NCBI RefSeq assembly: GCF_021462285.1 | Contig: NZ_CP082787.1 | Span: forward strand, 4,092,001-4,156,000 | DNA from: Serratia entomophila | GTDB lineage: Bacteria > Pseudomonadota > Gammaproteobacteria > Enterobacterales > Enterobacteriaceae | Reading direction: 5' to 3' | Length of the DNA stretch: 64,000 nucleotides | Shown here: one piece after another, positions 12,071 through 26,666 of the stretch | How positions within the stretch are numbered: the first letter of the stretch is position 1 | Layout of the letters: each line of letters starts with the position of its first letter | Translations under genes and position numbers: made by a program | Notes under the pieces: generated by a model | What the model saw: the letters and a program-made list of their open reading frames with translations, nothing else | Database searches by the model: none | Told to the model about the DNA's origin: nothing

Positions 12071-12077
12071 CATTAGC

Positions 12078-13721
12078 TCAGTACAAGGTCTTCTGCGGCG
12101 GCCCGGCAAAGGTCAGCGGCCCAACGCTTTTCATGTCCACTTCGACCACCGACGGCCCCGGATAGTTGATAGCCTCCGCCAGCACGCCGTTGAACTGCGC
12201 CGCATCGTCCACCTTCCAGGCCTTCAGCCCCATCGCCTCGGCGACCTGGGTAAAGGCCGGCGTGTGCAGCTCGTTGTAGTACTGACGCCCGGCAAAATAC
12301 TTGTCCTGAATGCCGCGCATCACGCCGTAACCGCCGTCGTTCATGATCAACAGCGTGATATTCACCTGCTCCTGCGCCATGGTCGCCAGCTCGCCCAGCC
12401 CCAGCGCCAATCCGCCGTCGCCCACCAGCCCCACCACCTTGCGCTGCGGGTTGGCGATCGCGGTGCCGATCGCCATCGGCAGCCCCATGCCGATGGCCCC
12501 GGCCAACGAATGAATGTTGCACAGCGGCGAGATGGCGCGGAACAGGCGGCTGCCCCACACGCTGCCGGACACGGTGATGTCGCGCACCAGCAACCCGTCC
12601 TGCGGAAGCGCCGCGTCGATGGCGTCGTTGAGCTTAACGTACTCGCCGGACTGCTGGCGCAGCGCGCTTTCCGCCTGCTGCACCGCGCGGGCTATTTCTG
12701 CATCCCAGGCGGCGTTTACCTTTTCGGCCGGGCTCAGCCGCGCCGCCAGCGCATCGAGCAGCGCCGCGCAGTCGCCGTTGACCTGTTCGTCGGCCAGATA
12801 ATTGCGGTTGGCCGCCGCCGGATCGATGTCTATTTGCACCAGCGGCCGCGGCAGCGGCAGCGTCCAGGTGCGGGTTTCGTTGCTGCGCAGGCGCGAACCG
12901 GCCACCAGCGTCAGGTCGCATTGGCTCAAAATCGCCTCTATGCTCGGCGAATTGTGGAACGCCCGCAGGCTGCGCGGGTGGCTGTCCGGCAGGATGCCGC
13001 GCCCATGGGTGCTGGAGATCACCGCCACCCCGGCGTCCGCCAGCTTGCGCACCGCAGCGCCGCAGGCCAGCGCGCCGCCGCCCAGCCACAGCAGCGGCCG
13101 CTTGGCCTGCTTCAGCCGCTGGTAAAGGCGTTCCGCCGCCTGCGGATCCGCCGCCGGCAGCGCAGCCGGCGACAGCGGCCGGCTCAGCACCGCGCTGGAG
13201 ACCAGGCTACTCTGAATATCGATCGGAATTTCCACCGCCACCGGGCCGCAGGGCACCGTCTGCGCGTCCTGGATAGCCCGTTGGATCACCGCCACCGCCT
13301 GCTCCGGAGAGTTGACGCGGTAAGCGCGCTTGGAGCAGGCGCTGAGGAAACCGAGCTGATCGCGGGTTTCGTGAATAAACCCGGCGTCGGCGTCCAGATA
13401 GGCCTTTTCCACCTGGCCGGTGATGTGCAACAGCGGGGTATTGGCGTTGAGCGCCTCAATCATCGCGCCGACCGCATTGCCCGCGCCGGCGCCGGTGCTG
13501 GTCAGCGCCACCCCCAGGCCGGAGAAGCGGCCGTGAGCGTCGGCCATGGTGACCGCGCCCGCTTCACCGCGTGCCGGTACGAAGCGGATCGCGCCGCGCT
13601 GCCCCACCGCATCGGCAATCGGCAGATTATGAATCGAAATGATGCCGTACATCGCCGACACCTCGTACTGTTCCAGAGTCCGGGCTATCGCCTCGCCAAC
13701 CGTTATTTTATCGCTCATCAT
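12078..13721 (-). CDS. ThDP-dependent 2-oxoacid decarboxylase/acetolactate synthase-like enzyme
   Basis: This 547-aa protein has the three-domain ThDP enzyme fold. The N-terminal PYR domain carries the cofactor-activating Glu in RGEAGA (E53). The PP domain has GDGGLALG (434-441) and NDGG about 28 residues later. The sequence resembles proteins annotated as acetolactate-synthase-like or 5-guanidino-2-oxopentanoate decarboxylase rather than anabolic IlvB. It is the last gene of the aromatic cluster, after an aldehyde dehydrogenase gene, so decarboxylation of a 2-oxo acid from ring cleavage to an aldehyde is a reasonable inference. Two ATGs overlap at 13721 and 13718, both served by AAGGCGG. Confidence 0.75.
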   Translation of the reverse strand: MMSDKITVGEAIARTLEQYEVSAMYGIISIHNLPIADAVGQRGAIRFVPARGEAGAVTMADAHGRFSGLGVALTSTGAGAGNAVGAMIEALNANTPLLHITGQVEKAYLDADAGFIHETRDQLGFLSACSKRAYRVNSPEQAVAVIQRAIQDAQTVPCGPVAVEIPIDIQSSLVSSAVLSRPLSPAALPAADPQAAERLYQRLKQAKRPLLWLGGGALACGAAVRKLADAGVAVISSTHGRGILPDSHPRSLRAFHNSPSIEAILSQCDLTLVAGSRLRSNETRTWTLPLPRPLVQIDIDPAAANRNYLADEQVNGDCAALLDALAARLSPAEKVNAAWDAEIARAVQQAESALRQQSGEYVKLNDAIDAALPQDGLLVRDITVSGSVWGSRLFRAISPLCNIHSLAGAIGMGLPMAIGTAIANPQRKVVGLVGDGGLALGLGELATMAQEQVNITLLIMNDGGYGVMRGIQDKYFAGRQYYNELHTPAFTQVAEAMGLKAWKVDDAAQFNGVLAEAINYPGPSVVEVDMKSVGPLTFAGPPQKTLY

Positions 13722-13768
13722 CCGCCTTCTTGTATGTTCGTTGTAGGGTTACGCGCAGTGGACCGATT

Positions 13769-15238
13769 CTAGTCACTCCAGCGGTTCACCTGATGGCTCA
13801 GCGCCAGATACAGGCTTTTTTGCTGCATGTAGGCTTTGATGCCGTGCAGGCCCTTTTCGCGGCCCAGACCGCTTTCCTTAAAACCGCCAAACGGCGTGGA
13901 AATAGAAAATGTCTTGTAGGTGTTGATCCAGACGGTGCCGGTTTCCAGGCTGTCCGCCAGCGCCATGGCGCGCGGGAAGTCACGGGTCCAGATGCCGGCC
14001 GCCAGCCCGTAGACCGAATCGTTGGCCTGCTCGATGAGCTGCTGCTCGTCGTCAAACGGCAACGCCACCAGCACCGGGCCGAAAATCTCTTCCTGGCAAG
14101 CGCGGGCGTCGTTGTTCAAACCTTCGATAATGGTCGGCAGGTAGTAACTGCCGCCCGCCAGCAACGGGTCCGCCGGTGCTTCGCCGCCGATCGTCACCTG
14201 CCCGCCTTCTTCGCGCGCCAGCGCCACGTAGTCCGCCACGCTCTGGCGGTGTTTTTCGCCGATCAGCGGGCCGAGATGCACCCCCGGCACCAGCGGATTG
14301 CCGATGCGCAGCCCGGCCGTCAGTTCGATCAGGCGCGCCAGCAGCGGTTGATAGAGCGAGCGGTGCACAAACAGCCGCGAACCGGCGATGCACGCCTGCC
14401 CGGCAGAGCTGAAGATGCCGTAGCAGATGCCGCGCGCCGCCTGTTCCACGTCGGCGTCTTCCAGCACGATGGTCGGCGATTTGCCGCCCAGCTCCAGCGA
14501 GGTCGGGATCAGCTTGTCGGCGGCGATGTGCGCCAGATGGCGTCCGGTGCCGGTGCCGCCGGTAAAGGAAATCTTTTTCACTAACGGGTGGCGCGCCAGC
14601 GCCTCGCCGATCACCGAGCCTTTGCCCGGCAGCACGCTGAACACCCCGGCGGGCAGACCGGCCTGTTCGAACAGCTCCGCCAGCTTCAGCGCCATCAGCG
14701 GCGTGGCCTCGGCCGGTTTGAGTATCACCGCATTGCCCGCCGCCAACGCCGGCGCCACCTTCTGCATTTCGCTGGCGATCGGCGAGTTCCATGGCGTAAT
14801 GGCGGCGATCACCCCCATCGGCTGATACTGACTCAGCGTCATCACTTCGGCGCTGCGCTGGGTCGGCAGCTCGCCCTCCAGCACCTCGCAGGCGGCGGCA
14901 AAATAGCGCGCGGTGGCGGCGGCGCTGGCCACCAGGCCACGGGTTTCCGCCAGCGGTTTGCCGTTGTCGCGGGTTTGCAGCTCCGCCAATTGCTCCTGCT
15001 GCGCCAGGATCAGGTTGCTGACGCGGTAAAGGATCGCCGCGCGCTGATGCGGCATCAGCCCGCGCCAGCTCGGCGCGCGCCAGGCGCGTTCCGCCGCTTC
15101 CACCGCCTCGTTCACATCTTCGATGCCGGCGGCGCGCAGCCGCGCGTTGACGCTGCCGTCGGCCGGAAATACCGAAACCATCTCTTCACCGCGCCCATCA
15201 CGCCAGCGGCCGGCGACAAAAATCTTTAACCTTTCCAT
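13769..15238 (-). CDS. NAD(P)+-dependent aldehyde dehydrogenase
   Basis: This 489-aa protein is a full-length ALDH superfamily member. It shows the nucleotide-binding stretch FTGGTGTGR, the catalytic Glu in LELGGKSP and the nucleophilic Cys in GQACIAGSR, plus the C-terminal PFGGFKESGLGRE. It oxidises an aldehyde to a carboxylic acid in the cytoplasm. Its position between the ThDP decarboxylase-like gene and the aspartate-dehydrogenase-like gene suggests it acts on an aldehyde made from the ring-cleavage product, for example a muconic semialdehyde or a decarboxylation product. The spacing of 16 bases to the upstream gene fits one operon. Confidence 0.9.
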   Translation of the reverse strand: MERLKIFVAGRWRDGRGEEMVSVFPADGSVNARLRAAGIEDVNEAVEAAERAWRAPSWRGLMPHQRAAILYRVSNLILAQQEQLAELQTRDNGKPLAETRGLVASAAATARYFAAACEVLEGELPTQRSAEVMTLSQYQPMGVIAAITPWNSPIASEMQKVAPALAAGNAVILKPAEATPLMALKLAELFEQAGLPAGVFSVLPGKGSVIGEALARHPLVKKISFTGGTGTGRHLAHIAADKLIPTSLELGGKSPTIVLEDADVEQAARGICYGIFSSAGQACIAGSRLFVHRSLYQPLLARLIELTAGLRIGNPLVPGVHLGPLIGEKHRQSVADYVALAREEGGQVTIGGEAPADPLLAGGSYYLPTIIEGLNNDARACQEEIFGPVLVALPFDDEQQLIEQANDSVYGLAAGIWTRDFPRAMALADSLETGTVWINTYKTFSISTPFGGFKESGLGREKGLHGIKAYMQQKSLYLALSHQVNRWSD

Positions 15239-15254
15239 ATTCTGCTCCCGCCGT

Positions 15255-16049
15255 TCAGGCGATAAAGCCGCCGTCGATCAGACGGCGACAGGCTTGCACC
15301 GCGCTCAGCGCCGCCAGGGTGGATGTCTTGGGGTTGCTCGCCAACGGATTGCCGCTCAACTCAATGTGGAACTCCCCGAAGCTGCCGCACACCTGCAGCC
15401 GGTGAGTGTTGCGGCGCGTCGCGGGATCGACCAGCAGCCGCACCCGGGTGGCGTCCATTCCCATGCCGTTGAGGGCGATGGTCGCCGCCACGTTGGCGTT
15501 GGCCGGGAACAGCCGCGCCGCCTCGCGCGCCGAGCCTTCGAAAAAGACCTGAGCTTCGTTCACCGCATCAAGGTCGATCAGCTGCTCCGCCATGCTGCCG
15601 CGCCAGCTGGCCGGGCTTTTGCACGCCTGATAAGTCACGCTGTCCAGCCCGCCCTCGCGCGCCGAAGCCAGCCCGTCCATGCCCGCCACCGCTCCGGACA
15701 GCACGATCACCTGCCCCCGGTGTTGCCGGCAGGCCAGTTGCAGCCGCTGCTGCAGCGCCGCATCCGCCAGCGCGCCGGTGGAGATCACCGCCAGTGGCCA
15801 GCCGCGCTTCACGACCGCTTCGCCAAATTCCGCCACCGCCTGCTGGCTGGCGCACTCCAGCACTAAATCCGGCCGTTCGGCACATTGTTCGGGATGGGTC
15901 AGCGCCTGCACCCGGCCGCCAAAGGCGCGGTCGATCGCCGCATGATGAGCCGCGCGCGCCAGGATCCAGCCGACCGTGACGCCGTCCGGCAGCCGGGCCA
16001 GCACTTCCTGCGCCATCGCGCCGTAGCCAATCATCATGATCTTCTTCAT
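15255..16049 (-). CDS. Aspartate dehydrogenase (NadX)-like protein
   Basis: This 264-aa protein matches the L-aspartate dehydrogenase family: Rossmann motif MIGYGAMAQE (G8, G10), the GAVAGMDGL segment, KSPASWRG, FPANANVAATIAL and NPKTSTLAALS near the C-terminus. The family catalytic His is probably H216 in NTHRL. Known members oxidise L-aspartate to iminoaspartate for NAD synthesis or degradation. Here it sits inside a ring-cleavage operon, so it may instead reduce or oxidise an imino or oxo acid intermediate. That function is unproven. It lies 16 bases after the preceding SDR gene. Confidence 0.8.
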   Translation of the reverse strand: MKKIMMIGYGAMAQEVLARLPDGVTVGWILARAAHHAAIDRAFGGRVQALTHPEQCAERPDLVLECASQQAVAEFGEAVVKRGWPLAVISTGALADAALQQRLQLACRQHRGQVIVLSGAVAGMDGLASAREGGLDSVTYQACKSPASWRGSMAEQLIDLDAVNEAQVFFEGSAREAARLFPANANVAATIALNGMGMDATRVRLLVDPATRRNTHRLQVCGSFGEFHIELSGNPLASNPKTSTLAALSAVQACRRLIDGGFIA

Positions 16050-16065
16050 CTTTCAGCCCCTGCGG

Positions 16066-16860
16066 TTACAGATGACGGTTAAAACCGCCGGAAACGTCCA
16101 GCGCCGCCCCGGTGGTAAAGGAAGCCAGCGGCGAAGCGAGGAACAGCAGCGCCTGCGCCGGCTCCTGCGGTTTGCCGAGGCGCTTCATCGGAATGCCGCG
16201 CCGTTCGGCGATCGCCGCCGTCCACTGCTCCCAGCTCTGATCCTGGTCGCTGCGCGCCTCGAAGCGGCGGCGCCATTGTCCGGACTCCACCATGCCCAGC
16301 AGGATAGAGTTGACGCGGATGCCCTTCTCCACCAGCTCTTTCGACAGCGTCAGCGTCATATTGAGCAGCGCCGCACGCGCCGCCGAGGTGGCGATCATGT
16401 GCTCCTCCGGCTGCAGCGCCAGCAGCGAATTCACGCAGGTGATCGAGGCGATGTCCGAGCGTTCCAGCGCCGGCAGGAACGCCTGCACCGGATTGATGAC
16501 GCCGAACAGCTTCAGTTCGGCCTCGTGCAGCCAGGCCTCGCGCGGGGTCTGGTCAAAGTGGGCGACAAAGCCCTGGCCGGCGTTGTTGATCAGCAGATCT
16601 ACGCCGCCGAAATGCGCCGTCACCTGGGCGGCGAACTGCGCCACCTGCTGCGCATCCAGCACGTCGCAGCGCAGCGCCAGGATGTCAGCCCGAGGAAACT
16701 CGTCGCGCAGGCGGGTTTCCGCGCCGGCCAGCTTCTCCCTATCGCGGCCGCAGAACGCCACCTTAGCCCCTTCAGCCAGCAGCAGCCGCAGGGTTTCAAA
16801 GCCGATGCCCGACGAGCCGCCGGTCACCACCGCCACCCGTTTTTCAAGCTGAAAGTTCAT
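16066..16860 (-). CDS. SDR-family protein lacking the canonical YxxxK active site
   Basis: This 264-aa protein has the SDR cofactor motif TGGSSGIG (13-20), NNAG (92-95) and a catalytic-type Ser (S145 in CVNSLLA). Counting from that serine, the catalytic Tyr position is T158 and the Lys position is R162 (ATSAARAALL), so YxxxK reads TxxxR. The other SDR in this cluster (22591-23346) has S145, Y158 and K162 at the same positions. It may bind NAD(P) but work by another mechanism. Its ATG overlaps the hydrolase stop codon by four bases, so it is translationally coupled. Confidence 0.85.
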   Translation of the reverse strand: MNFQLEKRVAVVTGGSSGIGFETLRLLLAEGAKVAFCGRDREKLAGAETRLRDEFPRADILALRCDVLDAQQVAQFAAQVTAHFGGVDLLINNAGQGFVAHFDQTPREAWLHEAELKLFGVINPVQAFLPALERSDIASITCVNSLLALQPEEHMIATSAARAALLNMTLTLSKELVEKGIRVNSILLGMVESGQWRRRFEARSDQDQSWEQWTAAIAERRGIPMKRLGKPQEPAQALLFLASPLASFTTGAALDVSGGFNRHL

Positions 16861-17675
16861 GGTTGAATCGCTCCCGTAAAGTCCTGCACATAGCGGTTAA
16901 AACAGGCCGGCGCATCGAGATAGCTGGCGTGGCCGGCGCCTTCGATCAGGCGCAGCGGTGCGTCCTGCTCCTGCGCCAGGCGGCCCGCGCCCTCCGGCGG
17001 CGTAATGCTGTCTTCATCGCCGCACCACACTTCCAGCGGCCCGCGATAACGCGCCAGATAGCGGCCAATGTCGTCGTTGGCCAACATCCAGGCGGCGCTG
17101 AGAAAACCGTCGGGATCGAGCTGCTGCATGCCGCTGCGCACCCAGGCGATATTTTGCGGATCCGTCCCCTCACGCAGCAGCGCCGCCGCCCGTTGCTCGC
17201 CGTAGCCCTGCGGCCCCAGCGTTTCCATCATCCGTTTGCGCTGGCCATACACCTGCCGCCGTTTTTCTTCCGGCGCGCTGGCGTAGCCCTGCGCCGGATC
17301 CGCCAGCACCAGCCCGCACAGCCCGTCCGGGTAGCCGGCGGCGTAGGCGCTGCCGATCAGCGCGCCGAGCGAATGCCCGACGATCAGCGGCTGTTCCAAC
17401 CGCAGTTCTGCCACCAGCGCCGCCAGCGCCGCGGCATAGTCGGCCGCATCCGCCGCCCCAGCGGCCAGCGGCAGGCTGCCGCCGTAGCCCGGTGCATCCC
17501 AGGCCAACAGGCGGTGGCCGTCGATCAGGCCGCGATCGCTGAACTGCCTGATCCACGACGCCGAGCTCGAGCTGATGCCGTGCAGCAGTACCACCGGCCG
17601 CCCGTGCCCGGCCTCGCGCCAGCTCAGGGTATAGCCCCCGCAGCGCGCCTGCTGGCGTTGCGCCAGGCCGCTCAT
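16857..17675 (-). CDS. Alpha/beta hydrolase, possible C-C bond hydrolase
   Basis: This 272-aa protein has an alpha/beta-hydrolase fold with the oxyanion motif LLHGISSSSASW (30-41), nucleophile elbow GHSLG (Ser102), acid D222 in GDEDS and His249 in GAGHASYLD. Meta-cleavage pathways use such enzymes to hydrolyse the ring-fission product, which suits its position after extradiol dioxygenase genes, but lactonase or esterase activity cannot be excluded. The ATG at 17675 overlaps the cupin stop (TGATG), preferred over an upstream frame start at 17756 inside the cupin gene. Confidence 0.85.
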   Translation of the reverse strand: MSGLAQRQQARCGGYTLSWREAGHGRPVVLLHGISSSSASWIRQFSDRGLIDGHRLLAWDAPGYGGSLPLAAGAADAADYAAALAALVAELRLEQPLIVGHSLGALIGSAYAAGYPDGLCGLVLADPAQGYASAPEEKRRQVYGQRKRMMETLGPQGYGEQRAAALLREGTDPQNIAWVRSGMQQLDPDGFLSAAWMLANDDIGRYLARYRGPLEVWCGDEDSITPPEGAGRLAQEQDAPLRLIEGAGHASYLDAPACFNRYVQDFTGAIQP

Positions 17676-18199
17676 CAGTTGCGCTTCACTTTGGATAACG
17701 GATGATCCGCCGGGTAAGTCGGGGTTTCCGGCTTGGCGGTGCCCAGCATCACGCACATCAGCGCCTCTTCCTCGCCGTGGTTGAATAACCCGCGATAGAC
17801 GCCGGCCGGCACCGAGATCAGGTCACGCTCTTTCAGCTTGGTCTCGTAATAGTCTTCTCCGTCCTGAATCATCAGCGTGATGCTGCCCTTGAGCATAAAG
17901 AACACTTCTTCCACGTCGTCGTGCAGGTGCAGCGGGCCTTCGCACTTCGACGGCAGCACCATGGTGGAGAAGGTGAAATTGCCCGCCGGAATGGTGTTGG
18001 TGTCGTTGACCACGCCGGTGGCGCCGGTGCCGATGTAGCGCATCTGCGCGCGGCGGTATTTCGGGTCGAAATCGGCCTGGAACTTCAGCGCGTTCCAGTC
18101 GTATTTGCGGCCTTCGAAGCGGGCGATGCGCGATTCCACCCAATTTTCCATCGACAGTTCCTGCGGCTTGACGCCGGCTTTGTTATCAACCTGGGACAT
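17675..18199 (-). CDS. Cupin-domain protein
   Basis: This 174-aa protein has one cupin barrel. The first metal motif reads GPLHLHDDVEEVFFMLKG, with two His and a Glu in order. The second motif (VPAGVYRGLFN) has Arg where metal-binding cupins usually have His, so metal binding may be altered. Function in the cluster is unknown; isomerase, decarboxylase or dioxygenase roles are all seen in cupins. The start at 18199 is supported by GAGGAG nine bases upstream; an ATG at 18214 comes before this Shine-Dalgarno and is less likely. Confidence 0.8.
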   Translation of the reverse strand: MSQVDNKAGVKPQELSMENWVESRIARFEGRKYDWNALKFQADFDPKYRRAQMRYIGTGATGVVNDTNTIPAGNFTFSTMVLPSKCEGPLHLHDDVEEVFFMLKGSITLMIQDGEDYYETKLKERDLISVPAGVYRGLFNHGEEEALMCVMLGTAKPETPTYPADHPLSKVKRN

Positions 18200-18229
18200 G
18201 TTGTCACTCCTCATTGCATCAGACGATTA

Positions 18230-19514: not shown

Positions 19515-20726
19515 TTATTTCAACGCCATCAGAGAAAACTCCACGTCCGCCAGCTGCTGCGGTTCCAGTACCCTTCCGCTGGCCAGCCAGCGTTTGCCGA
19601 GCTTGATGGTGCGCGCGTCGTTGAAGGCCACCATCTGCACCAGCTGCCGGTCGGCGTTCAGCGTGAAGAACACCTGCGACTGCGGCGTGCGCCGCACGAT
19701 GTGATGCACCCCGCCGATCGGCACGCCGAGGATTTGAATATTGACGTCGTATTGATCCGACCACAGCCAGGCAACGTCGTCGTAAGGGGCGGCGAAGGCG
19801 TCCAGCATGGCGCAGGCGGTGCTGATGGCCTGGTTCTGCGCATAGGCCCAGGACTGCAGGCACAGGCCGAGCGTCGGATGACGCGCCACGTCGCCGGCGG
19901 CGAAGATAGCCGGGTGGCTGGTGCGCCCCTGGCCGTCGACCACGATGCCGGCGTCGATTTTCAGCCCGGCGCTGTGCGCCAGCTCGAGGTTCAGTTCCAC
20001 GCCGATCCCCACCACCACCAGATCGAACGCCTGAGGATCGCCGAGCTCGCTGCCGATCCAGGCCGCGCCGTCGCGGTCTTCCAGCGAGATCTCGCCGCAG
20101 CCACACAGCACCGTCACGCCCTGCCGTTGATGCAGTTCAAGCAGCGCCTGGGATACCCCGGCGCCGACGCTGCGCATGCACAGCGCAGGCTGGCGTTCAA
20201 ACACCGTTACCTCGGCGCCAAGGCGGCGCGCCGAGGCGGCGATCTCCAGCCCTATCCAGCCGCCGCCGACGATCGCCAACTGACGGCACCCTTGCAGCGC
20301 CTGGCGCAGCCGGGCCGCATCGTCCCAGGAGCGCAGCGTCATCACCCGCGGGTGCGCCGCCCAGGCGGCATTCGGCAAACGCGGCCGCCCGCCGGTGGCG
20401 ATCAGCAGCTGATCAAACTGCAGCTGCCGGCCGTTGCTGAGCGTCACCACCTGCCGCGGCGCATCGATAGCTTCGGCGCGCAGCGGGCGGTGCCAGTCGA
20501 TATTCAGCTCCGCCACCGTCTGTTCGCTGAACAGCCGGCTGAGCGGCGCGGCGCCGTCCAGCAGCGCCGCCTTGGAGAGCGGCGGGCGTTCATAAAAGTC
20601 ATAGGGTTCGTCGCTGACCACCGTCAGGCGCCCGCCGTAGCCGCGGTCGCGCAGCGTTTTCGCCGCCCAGCCGCCAGCCTGGCCGCCGCCGATGATCAGG
20701 ATGCCCGCCGGTTCTGGCTGGCTCAT
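19515..20726 (-). CDS. FAD-dependent ferredoxin reductase
   Basis: This 403-aa protein has two dinucleotide-binding motifs, IIGGGQAGGWAA for FAD near the N-terminus and IVGGGWIGLEIA for NAD(P)H near residue 150, plus IFAAGDVARHP before the C-terminal domain. This is the architecture of reductases that serve Rieske oxygenases (HcaD, BphA4). It would pass electrons from NADH to the [2Fe-2S] ferredoxin at 24717-25034. The ATG at 20726 overlaps the VOC gene stop (ATGA), so it is coupled to it; a longer frame to 20954 lies inside the VOC gene and is rejected. Confidence 0.9.
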   Translation of the reverse strand: MSQPEPAGILIIGGGQAGGWAAKTLRDRGYGGRLTVVSDEPYDFYERPPLSKAALLDGAAPLSRLFSEQTVAELNIDWHRPLRAEAIDAPRQVVTLSNGRQLQFDQLLIATGGRPRLPNAAWAAHPRVMTLRSWDDAARLRQALQGCRQLAIVGGGWIGLEIAASARRLGAEVTVFERQPALCMRSVGAGVSQALLELHQRQGVTVLCGCGEISLEDRDGAAWIGSELGDPQAFDLVVVGIGVELNLELAHSAGLKIDAGIVVDGQGRTSHPAIFAAGDVARHPTLGLCLQSWAYAQNQAISTACAMLDAFAAPYDDVAWLWSDQYDVNIQILGVPIGGVHHIVRRTPQSQVFFTLNADRQLVQMVAFNDARTIKLGKRWLASGRVLEPQQLADVEFSLMALK

Positions 20727-21664
20727 AACGCCTCCGCCTTTTTCAGCTGACGACGGGTGTCGTGATCGATGCCGCCTTCCACCGCCCATTCGGTGAACGA
20801 CACCAGCGAGTGTTCCAGCTCGCGCGGTTGCCAGTTCTCCGTCAGGAAATCGTCGTTGGTGTAATACTCGAACGCGCCGCCGGTCGGGCTGTTGACGTAC
20901 CAGAAATAGGCCGAGGAAATCGGGTGACGGCCTGGGCCGATAAAGGTGCTCCATTTCTCCTTGTTCATGGCGATGCCGCCGCCGATCACCTCATGGATAT
21001 CGCGCACGGTGAACGCCACGTGATTCAGGCCGCGCGGGCGGTTAGGCAGCTTCAGCAAAAACAGGTTGTGGTGGCCGCCGCGCGCCTGGGTGCGCAGAAA
21101 TACCGCGCGGTCGATATAACGATCCGAGACCTGGAAACCCAGCACCTCCCGGTAGAAGCGTTCGGTGGCCGCCAGATCTTCGACGAAGAACACCACATGG
21201 CCGATGTTGATCGGCTGCGCCTGCGAATACACCGGGCTGGGCTGATCGATACGGCGCACGTCGCCCCACTGATTGATCGGCGTGACGGGCACGTCAACCT
21301 GCTGCTGGCGGCTGACGCCGAAACGCAGCGTCATGCCGTTGGGATCGACGCACTCCAGCTCTTCGCCAACCTGACGGAAGCCCGGCATCTGCGCCAACAG
21401 CGGCTGCAGCGCCGCCAGTTCGGCTGGGGAAGCCACGCCCCAGGTCATGCAGCGCAGGGTGGAGCCGCCTTCGAACGCCGTCGGCAGCGCTTCGCTTTGT
21501 TGCGGGTGCAGCACCACGCGCGCCCCGCTCAGGGTAGTGAATTCACGCTGGGGCTCGCCCCAGTGCTGCGTTACAGACTGCAGGCCGAAGTCCTGCATGA
21601 ATTTCTCGCAGGTAGACAGATCTTCGACGCCAAACTCCAGCTTTTCGATTCCGATTACGCTCAT
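20723..21664 (-). CDS. Type I extradiol dioxygenase (VOC family)
   Basis: This 313-aa protein has two vicinal-oxygen-chelate modules. The C-terminal module shows the Fe(II) ligands in order: H156 in IGHVVFF, H215 in LNHVAFTV and E266 in GGAFEYYTND. This is the pattern of catechol 2,3-dioxygenase and 2,3-dihydroxybiphenyl dioxygenase, which open a catechol ring next to the hydroxyls (meta-cleavage). It probably acts on the diol made by the cluster's Rieske oxygenase and dehydrogenase. A 105-base gap separates it from the IclR gene upstream, so an extra promoter there is possible. Confidence 0.88.
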   Translation of the reverse strand: MSVIGIEKLEFGVEDLSTCEKFMQDFGLQSVTQHWGEPQREFTTLSGARVVLHPQQSEALPTAFEGGSTLRCMTWGVASPAELAALQPLLAQMPGFRQVGEELECVDPNGMTLRFGVSRQQQVDVPVTPINQWGDVRRIDQPSPVYSQAQPINIGHVVFFVEDLAATERFYREVLGFQVSDRYIDRAVFLRTQARGGHHNLFLLKLPNRPRGLNHVAFTVRDIHEVIGGGIAMNKEKWSTFIGPGRHPISSAYFWYVNSPTGGAFEYYTNDDFLTENWQPRELEHSLVSFTEWAVEGGIDHDTRRQLKKAEAL

Positions 21665-21769
21665 TGTTGTGCCTCACGTTCTCGCTGAATGCGGTTTTCA
21701 GGCATGATCGAACCCCGGCCCCCGTTTTTCATGAGCCTCATCCCTGCCTGAGTAAAAGAATAGTGTCAG

Positions 21770-22564
21770 TTAACCGACGTTTGCCTGCGGCGGCGCGCCC
21801 AGGAAGCCGGAGATTTTTTCCGCGGCGTCCCTCACCTCCATCCGCAGCCGCTCGCGATCCGCTTTCGGGATCTCGTCGAACGGCACCATGATGCTGACCA
21901 CCGCCTCCACCCGCCGCTCGCGGTTGAAGATCGGATACACGATCGAGGAGATGCCGTGGCGGAAAAACGACTCGCCGATCACATAGCCGCGCGCCTTGTC
22001 CTGTTGCACCATCTGCCACAGCGCTTCGCGATCCGCCGGGGTGCCCGGCGCGTTGCCCGGCAGCTGCGCCTGCGGATACAGCTGTTCGAACTCGTCGCGG
22101 GTGGCGCTGGTCAACAGCATGCGCCCGAGCGACGTCTGGTGCACCGGCAAACGGGTACCGACGCTGACCTGATTGATTTGCGAACCGGCGGCGCTGACGC
22201 GGGCGATGTAGATCACATCGCGCTCATCGCGGATCGCCAGATGGCTGCTGCACTGGCTGCGATCGCGCAGCTGCTCAATCACCGGCTGGCCGGCCTGCGC
22301 CACGTCCAGCGAAGCGATATATTCAAAGCCGAGGCGCAGCACCTTGATGCCGAGCGCAAAGGTGTTGGTGCGCGGGTTGCGCTCCAAAAAACCCAGGTGC
22401 TCCAGCGTCTGCACCACGCGGTAGGCGGTGGCCTTTGGCATATCGACCAGGCGATGCAGCTCGGCAAAGGTCATTTCCTTATGCTGCTCGCCAAACGCCA
22501 GCAGCAGCTGCAGCCCGCGATCCAGTCCCGGGATCAAATACTTACACGCGTGATCGTCCGCCAT
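21770..22564 (-). CDS. IclR-family transcriptional regulator
   Basis: This 264-aa protein has an N-terminal winged helix-turn-helix (about residues 12-60, including TFAELHRLVDMPKATAYRVV) and a C-terminal IclR effector-binding domain with VIGESFFRHGISSIVYPIF. IclR proteins commonly control aromatic-degradation operons and bind an intermediate or substrate. It is encoded inside the operon, 26 bases after the SDR gene. Its likely operator is the set of palindromic half-sites at 25057-25080 ahead of the first gene of the cluster. Whether it activates or represses is not known; the site position suggests repression. Confidence 0.9.
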   Translation of the reverse strand: MADDHACKYLIPGLDRGLQLLLAFGEQHKEMTFAELHRLVDMPKATAYRVVQTLEHLGFLERNPRTNTFALGIKVLRLGFEYIASLDVAQAGQPVIEQLRDRSQCSSHLAIRDERDVIYIARVSAAGSQINQVSVGTRLPVHQTSLGRMLLTSATRDEFEQLYPQAQLPGNAPGTPADREALWQMVQQDKARGYVIGESFFRHGISSIVYPIFNRERRVEAVVSIMVPFDEIPKADRERLRMEVRDAAEKISGFLGAPPQANVG

Positions 22565-22590
22565 GTGCTGCTCCTGGCTAAAGTGTTGAG

Positions 22591-23346
22591 TTAGTTGAAG
22601 ACGAAGCCGCCGTTGACCGGCAACAGTTGCCCGGTGACAAAGTCCGCCAGCGGCGACAACAGGTAAAGCACGCTGCCGTTGACGTCGTCCGGATGCTGCG
22701 CCCCGGCCAGCGCTCGCCCCTGTTCATACAGCTGATGGCGCTCGGCCGGCACGTATTCGGTGGCTTCCACCCGCGTCAGCCCCGGCGCGATGGCGTTGAC
22801 GCAAATCCCCTGCGGGCCCAGCTCACGCGCCATCGAACGGGTCATCGAGATAATCGCCCCTTTGCTGGCCACGTAGGCCATCAGGCGCGGCGCGCCCCAC
22901 AGCGCGGTGTCCGAGGCGACGTTGACTATTTTGGCGTGCGGGTTCTGCGCCAGCAGCGGCACCGCCGCCTGGCTCACCAGCCAGGTGCCGCGCACGTTGA
23001 CCTGCATCACCCGATCCCAAAGATCGATATCGTATTCCATCATGGTTTTGCCGCCGACGCCGGTGGCCAACGCCGCGTTGTTGACCAGCCCGTCGATCGC
23101 GCCGCCTGCGGCGATCGCCTTGAATGCCGCCGTGATCGACGCCGGCGACGCCAGATCGATGGTCTGGGTTTCCACCAGAGCGCCCTGCTCGCGCAGGCCG
23201 GCGGCGCTGTCCGCCAGCTCATCCGCCAGAATATCGCACATCACCACCCTGGCGCCGGCCGCGGCGATGGCGGCGGCGAAGCTGCGCCCCAGGCCGCGCG
23301 CCGCGCCGGTAACCAGGATACGTTTGCCGTTCAGCAGGCCGTTCAC
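22591..23346 (-). CDS. SDR dehydrogenase, probable dihydrodiol dehydrogenase
   Basis: This 251-aa classical SDR has TGAARGLG (13-20), NNAA (89-92) and the full active site S145 (NVASDTA), Y158 and K162 (AYVASK). It is translationally coupled to the Rieske oxygenase gene (ATGA overlap at 23343-23346). In ring-hydroxylating pathways the next step is oxidation of a cis-dihydrodiol to a catechol, so this is the natural candidate for that step. The substrate is not evident from sequence. Confidence 0.85.
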   Translation of the reverse strand: MNGLLNGKRILVTGAARGLGRSFAAAIAAAGARVVMCDILADELADSAAGLREQGALVETQTIDLASPASITAAFKAIAAGGAIDGLVNNAALATGVGGKTMMEYDIDLWDRVMQVNVRGTWLVSQAAVPLLAQNPHAKIVNVASDTALWGAPRLMAYVASKGAIISMTRSMARELGPQGICVNAIAPGLTRVEATEYVPAERHQLYEQGRALAGAQHPDDVNGSVLYLLSPLADFVTGQLLPVNGGFVFN

Positions 23347-24386
23347 TGCGCCGCCTCCCGCTCGCTGAGCATCGCCAGCTGCTTTTGCGCCTCTTTCTGC
23401 ATCATGCGGCGCAGGCGGGAAAGGCCGACGTCGTGCTGGTAAAGATATTCGCGGCCGCGGGCGTTAGGCGCCATGTTTTCCAGCACGATGCGATCCTGCT
23501 CCAGCACGTCCCAGTGCAGCGCCTCCAGACGGTTGCGGTACATGAAGCGCCAGATATCACGCTGCCAGTCTTGCACCTTGCGGATACGCCAGAAGAATAC
23601 CCGGCAATGATCCTTGTCTTCCGGCACCACCATGCCGATGATCCAGAAGTGGCCGCCTGGCCCGAAGCGTTTTTTATACGGGATCGACAGGCGCATCCAG
23701 TAAGCGCCGCTGCTGCCGAACTCCACCCAGTCAAAGTTGACGCCGATCTGGCCGTTTTTCTTGAAGATAAAACCGCAGTCGGTAGGTTCCAGCGCCATAT
23801 CCGCCTTGCGATCCCCTTCCGCCATCGAATGCGAAGAAGAGTGCAGATAAGTGCCGTGCATGGGATCCATCACGTTTTCCAGCGCGTACTGATAGTTGCA
23901 GTCCCAGCTGGCGGTGCACAGGAAGTTGCTGTACGAGACTTCGTCCGCCAGCTCCTGCGGGAAGTTCAGCTCCGGCGGCGCTTCGTCCGCGGTGACGCCG
24001 AAATAAAGGAATACCGCGCCGTAGGCCTCTTTCGCCGGGTAAGATCGCAGACATTTCTGCCCCACCAGCGGGCACTTGTCTACCGCCGGCACGTCTTTGA
24101 CCGTGCCGTCGCCGCCCACTTCCACGCCGTGATACCAGCAGGCGATGCGATCGCCGAGGTTCCACCCCATGGAAAGCCGCGCGCCGCGGTGCGGGCAGCG
24201 ATCTTCCAGCGCATGGATGGCGCCTTCAGCGTCGCGCCATACCACGATCTGCTGCGCCAGACGGGTGATGCCCACGGGGTTGTTGCCCACTTCCCAACTG
24301 GCCAGCACCGGATACCACATGCCGCGCAGCCCCTGATCGAGATAGTCCTGCAAATTCTGTGCGGAGGATGTTGTGTTTGCCGTCAT
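23343..24386 (-). CDS. Aromatic ring-hydroxylating Rieske oxygenase, catalytic subunit
   Basis: This 347-aa protein has a Rieske [2Fe-2S] site with C64-x-H66 in CPHRG and C83-x2-H86 in CWYHG. The catalytic domain has D174, H177 and H182 in NVMDPMHGTYLH, the usual bridging Asp and two mononuclear-iron ligands; the third acidic ligand is probably within the EQDRIV segment. It inserts O2 into an aromatic ring using electrons from the ferredoxin. There is no classical beta-subunit gene. The ATG at 24386 is preceded by GGGAG; a frame start at 24449 lies inside the preceding gene. Confidence 0.92.
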   Translation of the reverse strand: MTANTTSSAQNLQDYLDQGLRGMWYPVLASWEVGNNPVGITRLAQQIVVWRDAEGAIHALEDRCPHRGARLSMGWNLGDRIACWYHGVEVGGDGTVKDVPAVDKCPLVGQKCLRSYPAKEAYGAVFLYFGVTADEAPPELNFPQELADEVSYSNFLCTASWDCNYQYALENVMDPMHGTYLHSSSHSMAEGDRKADMALEPTDCGFIFKKNGQIGVNFDWVEFGSSGAYWMRLSIPYKKRFGPGGHFWIIGMVVPEDKDHCRVFFWRIRKVQDWQRDIWRFMYRNRLEALHWDVLEQDRIVLENMAPNARGREYLYQHDVGLSRLRRMMQKEAQKQLAMLSEREAAQ

Positions 24387-24405
24387 TATCTTCTCCCGGA
24401 GGTGC

Positions 24406-24714
24406 TCAGAAACCGTTAACGTGAAGGAATTCGCGGAACGTCGCCTCATTCCACGGCTGGCCGCTGCGATCGAACAGGCGGCGCTGATTCAACGCGCTGA
24501 CGATCTGTTCCAGCTCTTCCGCACCCTGCTCGAAGATCTCTTCCAGCGCCGCAACCAGCGCGGTTTCAAAACCGTCCGGCACCCGGGCGCGGTTTTGCCA
24601 GACAACGTTCTGGAACTGGCCCGGCTGATGAATTTGGCCATTGCCGCCTTCACGCGCCGGGATCACCTGTTGGGTGTCCGGCAGCCAGGGATTGAAATCG
24701 GTGATGTGCTGCAT
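24406..24714 (-). CDS. Small protein encoded with the Rieske oxygenase
   Basis: This 102-aa protein starts at the ATG at 24714, two bases after the ferredoxin stop codon and with GGAGGAG upstream. It lies between the ferredoxin and catalytic subunit genes of the oxygenase. It contains ARVPDGFETALVAALEEIF, an acidic helix-rich middle part and a C-terminal NEATFREFLHVNGF. I recall similar proteins being labelled recombinase-like helix-turn-helix domain proteins beside Rieske dioxygenases; no recombinase catalytic residues are seen. It may be an accessory subunit. The function is unknown. Confidence 0.75.
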   Translation of the reverse strand: MQHITDFNPWLPDTQQVIPAREGGNGQIHQPGQFQNVVWQNRARVPDGFETALVAALEEIFEQGAEELEQIVSALNQRRLFDRSGQPWNEATFREFLHVNGF

Positions 24715-24716
24715 GG

Positions 24717-25034
24717 TTACTCCTCCGCGATAAAGGTGATCTGAATTTGGTTGTCGATCACCCGGGTGGCATAGGTTTGCAGATCGCGGCCGCCCGGCTC
24801 GCGCAGGCATTGCCCGGTGCGCACGTCGAACAGCGCTTCATGCAGCGGGCACTCAACCTTACCGTCGTCAACAAACCCCTGGCTGAGCAAGGCATAAGCA
24901 TGTGGGCAAACGTCTTCCAGCGCGTAGTAGTTGCCGTCGATCAGGTAAACCCCGACCTCTTTCCCTTCCACTTTGGCGGAGAAAGGAAAATCTTCTTTCA
25001 CCTGAGACACTTCACACACGTTCTTCCAGCTCAT
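24717..25034 (-). CDS. Rieske [2Fe-2S] ferredoxin
   Basis: This 105-aa soluble ferredoxin has C43-x-H45 (CPHAYALL) and C62-x2-H65 (CPLHEALFD), the Rieske cluster ligands. It should shuttle electrons from the FAD reductase (19515-20726) to the oxygenase. It is the first gene of the cluster. The ATG at 25034 has AGAGGA about eight bases upstream, and the tandem operator-like sequence ends 22 bases before it. Confidence 0.92.
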   Translation of the reverse strand: MSWKNVCEVSQVKEDFPFSAKVEGKEVGVYLIDGNYYALEDVCPHAYALLSQGFVDDGKVECPLHEALFDVRTGQCLREPGGRDLQTYATRVIDNQIQITFIAEE

Positions 25035-25056
25035 TGCTTTTGTCCTCTATCTGATT

Positions 25057-25080
25057 GTTTCATATATGAAACTCAGTTTC
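25057..25080. promoter_or_regulatory. Tandem palindromic operator, candidate IclR-family site
   Basis: GTTTCATATATGAAAC (25057-25072) is a perfect 16-bp palindrome. Its right half-site GAAAC is reused in a second one, GAAAC-TCA-GTTTC (25068-25080), giving three alternating half-sites. The site lies just downstream of the promoter at 25096-25123, roughly from +9 to +32, where a bound protein would block transcription. IclR-family proteins such as KdgR use TTTCA/TGAAA-type half-sites, and an IclR gene lies in the operon. Binding by that protein is an inference. Confidence 0.6.
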
Positions 25081-25095
25081 TTATTTAATACATCC

Positions 25096-25123
25096 ACTAT
25101 ATGTCTGGTGAATCTTTCGTCAA
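25096..25123 (-). promoter_or_regulatory. Sigma70 promoter of the aromatic cluster
   Basis: On the minus strand TTGACG (25123-25118) is followed after 16 bases by TATAGT (25101-25096), a close match to the sigma70 consensus. The start point would be near 25089, about 55 bases before the ferredoxin start codon. Confidence 0.65.
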
Positions 25124-25430
25124 GGGAGCAAGACGGCGATTGTTAATGAAAGGTTGTTTAAAAATGACAAATGCGGAGAGGATCACGAAAAAATGCACCG
25201 ATATGAAAAACTGATAAACCTTCTGCGCTATATAAGGAATTTATCGCAAAAAAAACGTTGATCTGGTCGGTGTTATGCGAGTAAAAGTTTTCCCCCAGGA
25301 TCTGCCACATCATTTTGATAACAATTAATTCACATTTAATCGGTTAAAAACCTGCCTTTCTGCACTATGAAATCAGCGGGTTAGTTTCTTGCCGCCTGGA
25401 TTTGACCATCGCCCGCAAAAGGAGCGCATC

Positions 25431-26666
25431 GTGCAACAACGTCAACGCTGGTTCGGGGTCATTGCCCTGCTGTTTTTAATCGTTATCGCCTATGCGGATC
25501 GGGTGAATATCGCCGTGATGCTGGTCAATCCCGACTTCCTGCACCACTTCCAGCTCGGCGGCAACCGCGCGCATCAGGGCGTGTTGATGACGGCGTTCTT
25601 ACTGGGTTACGGGGTTTCCGCCATGCTGCTGACGCCGTTCCTGGAAACCTTGATGGGTTACCGGCGCGCACTGACGCTGAGCATCCTGCTGTGGGCACTG
25701 CTCACCGCCGCCTCGCCGCTGGCGGGCTCGGCGCTGCTGTTGCTGGCGGTGCGCGCGCTGCTCGGCATCAGCGAGGGGCCACTATTTTCGTTGAAAACCA
25801 TGTACATCGGCGACCATTTCGCCGCCGACGAGCGCGGCAAACCTAATGCGGTCAGCACCCTGGGCGTTTCGTTGGGGCTGGTAATCGGCTTTCCGCTGGT
25901 GAGTTTCCTGATGGCGCACTTCGGCTGGGCGATGTCGTTCTATCTGCTGGCGTTGATCAATCTGCTGCTGGGGCTGGCGCTGGTGCGGCTGTTTATTCAT
26001 CCGGCTTCGCTGCCGCCGCGCGCCATGGAGCGGCGGCCGGTGCTGCGCCGCGTCTGGGAGACCTTCGTTCAGGCCTGGCGCACGCCGATGCTCGGCTGGA
26101 TCATGCTGATCGAGATCGCCACCCTCAGCTACCTGTGGGGATCCAGCTCCTGGCTGCCGGCCTATTTGATCGACGAGAAAGGCTTTTCCATCAAACAGAT
26201 GGGCTGGATGGCTGCGCTGCCGTTCATCGTCAGCATCGGATCGAAATACCTCGGCGGCGTGCTGCTCGATCGCATTCGACCCTATCAGGCGCCGCTGATT
26301 TTCGCCTTCGGCGGCGCGGCGACCGCAGCATGTATCTACGGCCTGATGCACAGCCAGCAGCTCGGCTGGATCGCCTTCTTCCTGCTGGCGGCCAATGCCT
26401 GCTGGGGCGCGCAGGGCGCGGCGATCCCCACGCTGTTGCAGCATTACGCCCCTCCACAGGCGGTGGGCAGCGCCTATGGCCTGATTAACGGCGTCGGCAA
26501 TCTGTTCTCGGCGTTTGTGCCGATGATGATGGGAATGGTGATGGCCAGCCAGGGTAAGGTGTCTTCGGGGTTCGCGGTGCTGATGGTGTCGCAGCTGGTG
26601 ACGCTGTTGGCGGGCGGCGTGCTGTTCAGCCGGATGCTGATGACGCGCGCGGCGCGGCGGGCATAG
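25431..26666 (+). CDS. MFS transporter divergent from the aromatic cluster
   Basis: This 411-aa inner-membrane protein of the major facilitator superfamily has about twelve hydrophobic segments and the ACS-type segments GISEGPLFSLKTMYIGDHF and YLWGSSSWLPAYLI. It is a relative of the MFS protein at 18230-19492. The chosen start is the GTG at 25431, because AAGGAG lies seven bases before it; a TTG at 25389 would add 14 residues without a Shine-Dalgarno. Being divergent from the same control region, it probably transports a substrate or product of the pathway. Confidence 0.85.
   Translation: MQQRQRWFGVIALLFLIVIAYADRVNIAVMLVNPDFLHHFQLGGNRAHQGVLMTAFLLGYGVSAMLLTPFLETLMGYRRALTLSILLWALLTAASPLAGSALLLLAVRALLGISEGPLFSLKTMYIGDHFAADERGKPNAVSTLGVSLGLVIGFPLVSFLMAHFGWAMSFYLLALINLLLGLALVRLFIHPASLPPRAMERRPVLRRVWETFVQAWRTPMLGWIMLIEIATLSYLWGSSSWLPAYLIDEKGFSIKQMGWMAALPFIVSIGSKYLGGVLLDRIRPYQAPLIFAFGGAATAACIYGLMHSQQLGWIAFFLLAANACWGAQGAAIPTLLQHYAPPQAVGSAYGLINGVGNLFSAFVPMMMGMVMASQGKVSSGFAVLMVSQLVTLLAGGVLFSRMLMTRAARRA

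Follow-up and report, generated by a model that had tools for sequence, protein, structure and literature searches.

Gene content and regulatory elements of the cluster

The analysed window, a stretch of 64,000 nucleotides from Serratia entomophila, carries on its minus strand (12078–25034) 14 genes in a row that overlap or lie at most 105 bp apart, together with a divergent MFS transporter gene (Table 1); the last gene of the row stops at 12078, and the divergent gene at 26666. The 13 intergenic gaps (47, 16, 16, –4, –1, 30, 22, –4, 105, 26, –4, 19 and 2 bp) span only –4 to 105 bp, so the 14 genes likely form a single operon. Likely true start sites were set from the preceding sequence for RO (24386), the HTH_62 protein (24714), FdR (20726), ABH (17675) and the cupin (18199), that of RO also being backed by the point where the similarity of relatives sets in; MFS2 probably starts at a GTG (25431) behind AAGGAG. 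This packing and the divergent transporter gene had been described in an earlier note on the DNA, and Pfam agrees with the gene kinds given there for all named reading frames; the one gene left unnamed there is the small PF20552 (HTH_62) gene that separates ferredoxin from oxygenase. The "three-component Rieske oxygenase" of the note does have three parts, here corrected to a Rieske ferredoxin, a lone alpha subunit and an FAD reductase; Pfam assigned none of the 15 gene products to a beta-subunit family.

Table 1. Genes and regulatory features of the cluster (window coordinates)
Feature	Coordinates	Strand	Evidence
Fd, Rieske-type ferredoxin, first gene of the operon	24717..25034	-	Pfam Rieske 4e-21; NCBIfam AndAb 1.1e-28, under cut-off
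Small PF20552 (HTH_62) protein, 102 aa, conserved oxygenase neighbour	24406..24714	-	Pfam 3.8e-21
RO, Rieske oxygenase alpha subunit, proposed kynurenate 7,8-dioxygenase	23343..24386	-	Pfam Rieske 1.1e-22, VanA_C 1.6e-13
SDR1, proposed cis-dihydrodiol dehydrogenase	22591..23346	-	Pfam adh_short_C2 5.7e-53
IclR-family regulator	21770..22564	-	Pfam IclR_C 3.5e-34; NCBIfam PcaR/PcaU/PobR family 4.5e-48, under cut-off
VOC-type extradiol dioxygenase, proposed 7,8-dihydroxykynurenate 8,8a-dioxygenase	20723..21664	-	Best PDB match homoprotocatechuate 2,3-dioxygenase, E 2e-15
FdR, FAD-dependent ferredoxin reductase	19515..20726	-	NCBIfam HcaD 1.2e-94, under cut-off; Pfam Reductase_C
MFS transporter 1 (MFS1), proposed uptake	18230..19492	-	Pfam MFS_1 3.3e-56; NCBIfam D-galactonate transporter subfamily 4.1e-51, under cut-off
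Small cupin	17675..18199	-	Pfam Cupin_2 3.1e-11; PDB matches weak only
ABH, alpha/beta hydrolase, proposed lactam or C-C bond hydrolase	16857..17675	-	Pfam Abhydrolase_1 5.2e-23
SDR2, non-canonical SDR, proposed ene-reductase	16066..16860	-	NCBIfam PRK07062, 438 bits (cut-off 266)
AspDH, L-aspartate dehydrogenase family, proposed iminosuccinate to L-aspartate	15255..16049	-	NCBIfam PRK13303.1-3, 403 bits (cut-off 177)
ALDH, aldehyde dehydrogenase	13769..15238	-	Pfam Aldedh 3.8e-166
ThDP-dependent enzyme, proposed 2-oxoacid decarboxylase, last gene	12078..13721	-	NCBIfam PRK07064, 826 bits (cut-off 495)
MFS transporter 2 (MFS2), divergent	25431..26666	+	Pfam MFS_1 8.8e-47
Perfect 16-bp palindrome, proposed IclR operator	25057..25072	.	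Before the first gene of the operon
Promoter-like TTGACG-16-TATAGT, upstream of the ferredoxin gene	25096..25123	-	Consensus match only

The perfect palindrome GTTTCATATATGAAAC has no other exact copy in the genome. Palindromes of at least 16 bp arose in 44 of 5000 shuffled intergenic regions, which makes the palindrome by itself modest evidence for an operator; its weight comes from conservation, a palindromic operator-like site upstream of the first gene recurring across classes. The promoter scan returned 3 sites in total against a shuffle mean of 3.6, and thus no excess.

Active sites and distribution of the gene set

Active-site residues are nearly invariant across the alignments of relatives. 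RO combines Rieske and VanA_C-type domains with iron ligands as in single-alpha-subunit (VanA/CarAa) Rieske oxygenases; its Rieske ligands are kept in 90/90 rows, no putative iron ligand is kept in fewer than 89/90, and the predicted structure model has a pLDDT of 84. PDB profile searches placed RO nearest to a putative phthalate 4,5-dioxygenase (9e-30), followed by carbazole dioxygenase (3e-28) and DdmC (5e-26), with 2-oxoquinoline 8-monooxygenase lower (1e-17); the resemblance to quinoline-type oxygenases is remote and is common to phthalate, demethylase and steroid enzymes too. Complete conservation was found for S145, Y158 and K162 of SDR1 (76/76 rows), H156, H215 and E266 of the VOC enzyme (73/73), the S129, D249, H276 triad of ABH (84/84), E249 and C283 of ALDH (69/69), E53 of the ThDP enzyme (59/59, with 8 short rows dropped), and the putative metal ligands H96, H98 and E102 plus R141 of the cupin (78/78), cupin and ABH residues being numbered on the long reading frames. 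Names of VOC homologues are generic among the 120 of 3060 matches listed.

SDR2 lacks the catalytic YxxxK pair of classical SDRs, its Tyr and Lys being replaced by Thr and Arg (S145 in 78/80, T158 in 79/80 and R162 in 80/80 rows), and the missing pair is the sole ground on which SDR2 is proposed to be an ene-reductase. Its best PDB match, Q9HYA2 (3lf1, also 3lf2; E 5e-93), has the same Thr and Arg at these positions. We take Q9HYA2 to be a Pseudomonas aeruginosa SDR from the cluster PA3504–PA3511, which to our knowledge includes no Rieske oxygenase. AspDH matches the aspartate dehydrogenase 2dc1 (6e-33) and, besides its score above the curated NadX family cut-off, carries N214 and H216 in 77/77 rows, the Asn/His signature of L-aspartate dehydrogenase (NadX); the activity is a predicted one.

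The earlier note had proposed searching the cluster against sequenced genomes, and the gene set recurs there in Serratia, Klebsiella, Enterobacter, Acinetobacter, Burkholderia-type bacteria, Cupriavidus, Novosphingobium, Rhodospirillales and Rhodobacterales. Co-occurrence was counted with similarity cut-offs and 10-kb flanks around related oxygenases, in 74 loci that each measure 20 kb or more. Neighbours were ABH (72), SDR2 (69), the ThDP enzyme (69), AspDH (68), the cupin (67), VOC (65), SDR1 (65) and ALDH (63), and the full set of seven core genes under test, which does not include ALDH, occurs in 52/74; at a low score cut-off, the PF20552 gene is found in 66/74. Recurrence on this scale exceeds a chance grouping. 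The 14-gene cluster is a widespread conserved unit, not peculiar to this strain. Transporter genes near the relatives' clusters include MFS, ABC, TRAP and TTT types, several of which are known for carboxylates.

SDR2 was discarded as a genome-wide marker: it was found in 1/369 genomes (its own), a count uninformative on distribution because genomes hold many SDRs and scoring stopped at 7 candidates in each. AspDH relatives of about 40% identity on plasmids of Rhizobium and Phaeobacter (4 loci examined among 60 listed matches) are annotated without RO, VOC or ThDP enzyme nearby; at both Phaeobacter loci, kynureninase and 3-hydroxyanthranilate dioxygenase lie 7–11 kb off.

A proposed route for kynurenate

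The earlier note had read the cluster as one for aromatic ring cleavage. Ring cleavage stands, as does the order of dihydroxylation, dehydrogenation and meta-cleavage (a ring-hydroxylating oxygenase, a diol-dehydrogenase-type SDR and an extradiol dioxygenase share the operon by family and residues), whereas the gene set proves not to be unusual to the strain. The claimed lack of hydratase and aldolase also holds, Pfam finding no 2-hydroxypentadienoate hydratase or 4-hydroxy-2-oxovalerate aldolase family in the 15 gene products; the cluster thus shares oxygenase, SDR and extradiol enzyme with classical meta-cleavage operons but not their hydratase/aldolase. The note had not drawn the conclusion that a ThDP decarboxylase, ALDH and AspDH in this setting point to an N-heteroaromatic acid such as kynurenate, and away from classical lower pathways of the benzoate/biphenyl type.

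The gene content fits, step by step, the kynurenate pathway of KEGG map00380 and of Hayaishi and Dagley, and, judged by family and active site, the cluster has enzymes suited to dihydroxylation, dehydrogenation and extradiol cleavage as well as to 2-oxoacid decarboxylation and aldehyde oxidation. The enzymology of this pseudomonad ("quinoline") pathway is chemistry of the 1960s, and we know of no genes for it. We consider the chances evenly balanced that the operon, under IclR control, serves to degrade kynurenate (4-hydroxyquinoline-2-carboxylate), or a quinoline-2-carboxylate closely resembling it, aerobically; kynurenate itself as substrate, suggested by chemical logic, stands at about the midpoint between doubt and belief. 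The sequence gives families, active sites, layout, the operator-like site and co-occurrence; we infer the substrate and how the late steps are ordered.

In the proposed route, MFS1 and MFS2 would take up the substrate, and RO, with electrons delivered via Fd and FdR, would form the 7,8-cis-dihydrodiol, to be oxidised by SDR1 to 7,8-dihydroxykynurenate. The VOC enzyme would cut C8–C8a, leaving a dihydroxypicolinate whose 3-carboxy-3-oxopropenyl side chain may have its C=C bond reduced by the Tyr/Lys-less SDR2. The ThDP enzyme would decarboxylate the 2-oxo acid to an aldehyde, and ALDH would yield 5-(2-carboxyethyl)-4,6-dihydroxypicolinate. ABH, perhaps with the cupin, whose role is uncertain, would hydrolyse the tautomeric pyridone at C4–C5 and the lactam, giving glutarate and iminosuccinate, the latter being converted by AspDH to L-aspartate. 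L-aspartate, a C5 diacid and CO2 are the products on our best reading, and the carbon balances (C10 = C4 + C5 + CO2). Aspartate fits because the pyridine nitrogen, C2–C4 and the carboxyl group make a matching fragment, and the ThDP enzyme and ALDH would account for the absent hydratase/aldolase. The pseudomonad pathway shares the predicted steps from dihydroxylation, dehydrogenation and extradiol cleavage to a putative C=C reduction, decarboxylation and aldehyde oxidation, but the late steps and AspDH are our proposal, and the substrate here is a predicted one.

We count in favour of the kynurenate reading the retention of the set as a unit with a conserved operator-like motif, the carboxylate-type transporters near relatives and the second place of carbazole dioxygenase among solved oxygenases, with 2-oxoquinoline 8-monooxygenase lower; the remote similarity of RO to quinoline-type oxygenases counts against kynurenate. 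Enzymatic formation of 7,8-dihydroxykynurenic acid appears in a title of Taniuchi and Hayaishi (1963) cited in PMC5610271. According to the available part of PMC11354673, pseudomonads turn kynurenate into glutamate, alanine and organic acids, which is not exactly aspartate plus glutarate and so counts against the proposed products. As a glutarate sink, CsiD had no match in the strain's own genome, which leaves glutarate use without explanation. Tryptophan 2,3-dioxygenase occurs in 10/20 cluster genomes and in the strain's own; as an adjacent substrate clue it was rejected, the own enzyme having no relative in 90 cluster loci (the positive control was found).

Accessory genes, alternative substrates and significance

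Some relatives carry accessory oxidative genes that the Serratia cluster itself does not hold. Orthologous three-subunit Mo hydroxylases (59–66% identity) lie about 6 kb or less from RO in Billgrantia (L051), on the strand opposite long, partly spurious reading frames, and in Caballeronia (L031). The Mo large subunit was detected in 7/90 loci, five of these being only 24–35% identical to the L031/L051 pair, and its best match is 4-hydroxybenzoyl-CoA reductase by both NCBIfam (under cut-off) and PDB. A flavin monooxygenase likewise occurs in 7/90 loci (six matches share 55–71% identity with the seventh); the enzyme that was examined is closest in the PDB to 6-hydroxynicotinate 3-monooxygenase (E 8e-81). 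NCBIfam places it nearest to 3-hydroxybenzoate 6-monooxygenase and relates it to salicylate hydroxylases too, in each case under the cut-off. Such genes suit an N-heteroaromatic substrate, although 3-hydroxybenzoate 6-monooxygenase and 4-hydroxybenzoyl-CoA reductase among the matches leave a nitrogen ring unproven. In the 74 loci, Mo gene and ALDH occur together once, Mo without ALDH in 4, ALDH only in 62 and neither in 7 (L051 included, though Mo genes were later found there); the Mo enzyme could therefore be an aldehyde oxidase standing in for ALDH, a pattern confounded by shared ancestry.

The same genes would suit several rings, and paralogous RO genes with different neighbours (L031, L032) also speak for another N-heteroaromatic or amino-aromatic acid, e.g. 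another hydroxyquinoline or an indole carboxylate, handled along the same lines, kynurenate then being at most a side substrate. We regard this as rather unlikely, since kynurenate is a close fit to the set of 2-oxoacid decarboxylase, ALDH and aspartate-forming enzymes and we thought of no equally fitting alternative.

An ordinary N-free aromatic acid from plants or peptides, with the AspDH-like protein working on something else, is less probable still. The kinship of the accessory flavin monooxygenase with 3-hydroxybenzoate and salicylate hydroxylases and the breadth of the MFS types favour it, as do data in the accessible part of PMC5757984, where A1S_0954, 0956, 0957 and 0958 of Acinetobacter baumannii ATCC 19606 (hydrolase, AspDH, betaine-aldehyde dehydrogenase and acetolactate synthase, ordered as in L025) rise 2.2–3.7 fold with mucin alongside benzoate and phenylacetate genes; against it stand the invariant AspDH signature and the presence of that gene in nearly all loci counted. 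An aromatic amino-acid-type substrate, which after dihydroxylation and extradiol cleavage ABH would split by C–C hydrolysis into aspartate and 2-hydroxypentadienoate, with AspDH deaminating aspartate and hydratase/aldolase supplied in trans, would agree with the intact ABH triad and the AspDH family but is highly improbable, because it gives no task to the conserved ThDP enzyme, ALDH and SDR2 and leaves the cluster without its hydratase/aldolase.

The carbazole 1,9a-dioxygenase (car) system likewise has a single-type alpha subunit, a Rieske ferredoxin, a separate reductase, an extradiol enzyme and a hydrolase, with a lower pathway via hydratase/aldolase; its oxygenase is only remotely similar, and the ThDP enzyme, ALDH and AspDH are extra in Serratia. 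As far as the available text of PMC12746152 goes, the Nocardioides simplex lumichrome operon also directs a thiamin-dependent decarboxylase, a Rieske dioxygenase and an extradiol enzyme at an N-heteroaromatic, but differs in its two-subunit oxygenase, P450, amidases, gene order and retroaldol ending, and no aspartate dehydrogenase was found for it there. Among the papers listed by a limited, mostly open-access literature search, there was no description of the cluster's function, in keeping with its earlier description as uncharacterised, and there were no genes for bacterial kynurenate breakdown; for locus tags PA3504–3506 and the A1S numbers, it found only PMC5757984.

Returning to kynurenate, the fullest claim is offered tentatively, with doubt outweighing confidence: that the operon supplies the missing genes by which bacteria degrade kynurenate to L-aspartate, glutarate and CO2, with a Tyr-less SDR as ene-reductase, AspDH as terminal iminosuccinate reductase and a cross-class IclR operator, the relatives' Mo hydroxylase serving quinaldate and their flavin monooxygenase xanthurenate or a hydroxypicolinate intermediate. 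Kynurenate, a tryptophan product of hosts and foods, has been described as neuroactive and immune-modulating; it is also present in insects, and the chemistry of its bacterial breakdown was solved decades ago. If the claim is true, several orphan activities would gain sequences together, aspartate dehydrogenase would acquire a clear catabolic task, and genome sequences would reveal the capacity in Serratia, Klebsiella, Acinetobacter and other bacteria that encounter tryptophan metabolites of a host.

Operon organization and a candidate operator

The operon is a genuine, intact and conserved catabolic unit. The 14 minus-strand genes with a divergent MFS gene that the earlier note had described were borne out; they are listed below with the other features. 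Four junctions within the operon are overlaps of 1 or 4 bp, the maximum gap is 105 bp, and the cluster has housekeeping neighbours: LoiP at one end, RluF and agmatinase at the other. Beyond the agmatinase gene lie genes for a fimbrial subunit and an outer-membrane usher of the chaperone-usher type.

Features and coordinates in the window and in related records
Feature	Record	Position	Strand
Operon, 14 genes	window	12078-25034	minus
Operon, first part (5' to 3'): Rieske ferredoxin, small PF20552 protein, Rieske oxygenase alpha subunit, SDR1, IclR regulator	window		minus
Operon, middle part: VOC extradiol dioxygenase, FAD ferredoxin reductase, MFS1, cupin	window		minus
Operon, last part: alpha/beta hydrolase, SDR2, aspartate dehydrogenase, aldehyde dehydrogenase (ALDH), ThDP enzyme	window		minus
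PF20552 gene	window	24406-24714	minus
Operator-like palindrome	window	25057-25072	
Divergent MFS gene	window	to 26666	
Fimbrial subunit and usher genes	window	30143-33602	
Further 16-bp palindromes	window	47352-47367; 58523-58538	
Tryptophan 2,3-dioxygenase-like gene	own genome, G000:C1	3052692-3053489	
Genes matching the A1S set	L025, A. baumannii	21843-27443	
Rieske upper genes and Mo hydroxylase	L031, Caballeronia	15055-23611	
Rieske upper genes and Mo hydroxylase	L051, Billgrantia	9293-19662	
Paralogous oxygenase, RidA, PDR/VanB reductase	L032, Caballeronia sp. M1242	13093-17411	
Aspartate dehydrogenase relative and neighbours	L115, L117, Phaeobacter plasmids	12004-24168	

A perfect palindrome, GTTTCATATATGAAAC, lies 22 bp upstream of the operon's first start codon. 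It is the sole exact match to GTTTYATATATRAAAC genome-wide; two mismatches admit six more genomic sites, compared to four for a control pattern. A site within four mismatches of the motif is present before the first gene in 61 loci of the 88 used (from 90 around oxygenase relatives) versus 127 of 1760 shuffled regions, a count in which the loci are non-independent and the motif derives from some of the same loci. Exact or one-mismatch sites were found in enterobacteria, Acinetobacter, Zobellella, Ignatzschineria, Glaciimonas, one Cupriavidus and alphaproteobacteria. By inference, the IclR protein encoded within the cluster is the obvious candidate binder. The window holds two further perfect 16-bp palindromes of different sequence.

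Distribution and conserved core

Strong oxygenase matches (E < 1e-190) were obtained in 28 of the 60 genomes searched: our own, 25 of 29 congeners and two further members of the family. The four congeners lacking a match have genomes of 1.5-3.6 Mb, and oxygenases in named Serratia genomes share 94-95% identity with that of the window. An even, phylum-wide draw of 398 genomes gave 15 matches (own included) at E 1e-80, and E. coli genomes gave no DNA-level match to the whole cluster (megablast) or the oxygenase gene (blastn). In the one Klebsiella record examined, the set is flanked by agmatinase (speB) on one side and, on the other, by an M48 protease that is preceded by an insertion sequence. 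The Serratia cluster occupies the corresponding place, with RluF between, and this correspondence therefore suggests an old enterobacterial location.

Conservation was evaluated in 90 loci (10 plasmid records and the best 80 of 584 genome relatives of the oxygenase), in which ORFs were assigned by similarity to window genes. A full seven-gene core (SDR1, cupin, alpha/beta hydrolase, SDR2, ThDP enzyme, aspartate dehydrogenase and extradiol dioxygenase) was present in 52 of the 74 loci that span 20 kb or more, and at least six of these genes in 61 of 74, in a sample that favours close relatives, includes a few species twice and has two loci (L031 and L032) centred on paralogues. Because the counts rest on similarity cut-offs and 10-kb flanks, some apparent absences are artefacts; in three loci from Rhodobacterales and Nitratireductor (L028-L030), the extradiol, cupin and PF20552 genes are present yet under the thresholds. 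Sought in sequenced genomes as the ordered cluster of the earlier note, the genes recur as a set but not in one order: across the 90 loci, the catabolic core stays while gene order varies by lineage. Also exchanged between lineages are (i) transporters (MFS, ABC, TRAP or TTT), and (ii) electron-transfer partners (Rieske ferredoxin, flavodoxin or PDR/VanB). The PF20552 'recombinase-like HTH' gene accompanies the oxygenase in 66 of 74 loci, and its product may therefore be an oxygenase partner and not a DNA-binding protein. In L032, the paralogous oxygenase, RidA and reductase genes adjoin a copy of the cluster core, which suggests a sister pathway that supplies this core.

Active sites and proposed route

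Active-site residues were counted in hits above a score cut-off, excluding rows below 75% of query length (0-8 per family). Every row retains H156, H215 and E266 of the extradiol dioxygenase (73/73), S/Y/K of SDR1 (76/76), N214/H216 of aspartate dehydrogenase (77/77), S/D/H of the hydrolase (84/84), E/C of ALDH (69/69) and E53 of the ThDP enzyme (59/59); the oxygenase keeps its Rieske ligands in 90/90 rows and putative iron ligands in 89 or 90 of 90. SDR2 lacks the SDR Tyr and Lys, which are replaced by Thr (79/80) and Arg (80/80). Its best solved relative, Q9HYA2, has identical residues at these positions, and one paper on that protein reportedly names its 'atypical catalytic center'. In plant SDRs, loss of the Tyr can accompany ene-reduction.

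The Rieske oxygenase, an SDR and the extradiol enzyme would form a catechol and then cleave it. The classical meta pathway needs a hydratase and an aldolase after ring cleavage; the cluster has a ThDP enzyme and ALDH in their place, and would therefore suit a ring-fission product bearing a 2-oxo acid side chain with one carbon to lose. In kynurenate degradation, ring fission of 7,8-dihydroxykynurenate gives a dihydroxypicolinate carrying an oxo-acid side chain; this product is then reduced, decarboxylated and oxidised. If the remaining pyridone were opened at C4-C5 and the lactam, glutarate and iminosuccinate would result, the latter a substrate for aspartate dehydrogenase. Judged from gene content, kynurenate (4-hydroxyquinoline-2-carboxylate) or a close relative would be the best-fitting substrate, and we put the chances of this at about even. 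On the two Phaeobacter plasmids, genes for kynureninase and 3-hydroxyanthranilate 3,4-dioxygenase occur 7-11 kb away from the aspartate dehydrogenase relative, which again hints at this enzyme near tryptophan catabolism.

Accessory hydroxylases and published data

Additional hydroxylases in relatives agree with an N-heteroaromatic substrate: Billgrantia and Caballeronia have orthologous Mo hydroxylases of three subunits close to the oxygenase, five further, more distant Mo large subunits occur among the 90 loci, and a flavin monooxygenase gene is present in seven of the 90, with 6-hydroxynicotinate 3-monooxygenase as its best PDB match. Counting against this reading, the Mo large subunits score highest with 4-hydroxybenzoyl-CoA reductase (quinoline 2-oxidoreductase is lower), and the best NCBIfam model for the flavin enzyme is 3-hydroxybenzoate 6-monooxygenase, albeit below cut-off. 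Mo genes are relatively commoner in loci without ALDH, which allows the Mo enzyme to be an aldehyde oxidase. In L031 and L051, from two distant genera, Rieske upper genes stand beside a complete Mo hydroxylase (three subunits, CoxG-like); no lower-pathway genes above the cut-offs occur within the stretch of L051 analysed. A Serratia marcescens strain is reported to degrade quinaldate through a Mo-containing 4-oxidoreductase.

As far as we found, the operon is uncharacterised, as the earlier note had it: the literature, partially covered, yielded no description of its function. The titles and abstracts listed on kynurenate and quinaldate gave no genes for kynurenate degradation, which is weak evidence of absence given partial coverage with few subscription papers or preprints. 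Pseudomonads turn kynurenate into glutamate, alanine and organic acids (PMC11354673). P. aeruginosa produces kynurenate, with no degradation reported in the parts available (PMC4938989). The available part of an A. baumannii study includes an RNA-seq table in which A1S_0954, 0956, 0957 and 0958 are mucin-induced 2.2-3.7 fold and filed under benzoate/catechol and amino-acid catabolism (PMC5757984). Their order and kinds of annotation match genes of L025, A1S_0955 being outside the portion compared; because names and order agree, these are likely the lower-pathway genes of that locus. Far from the cluster, our own genome has a gene for a tryptophan 2,3-dioxygenase-like protein, and the strain may therefore make kynurenine itself.
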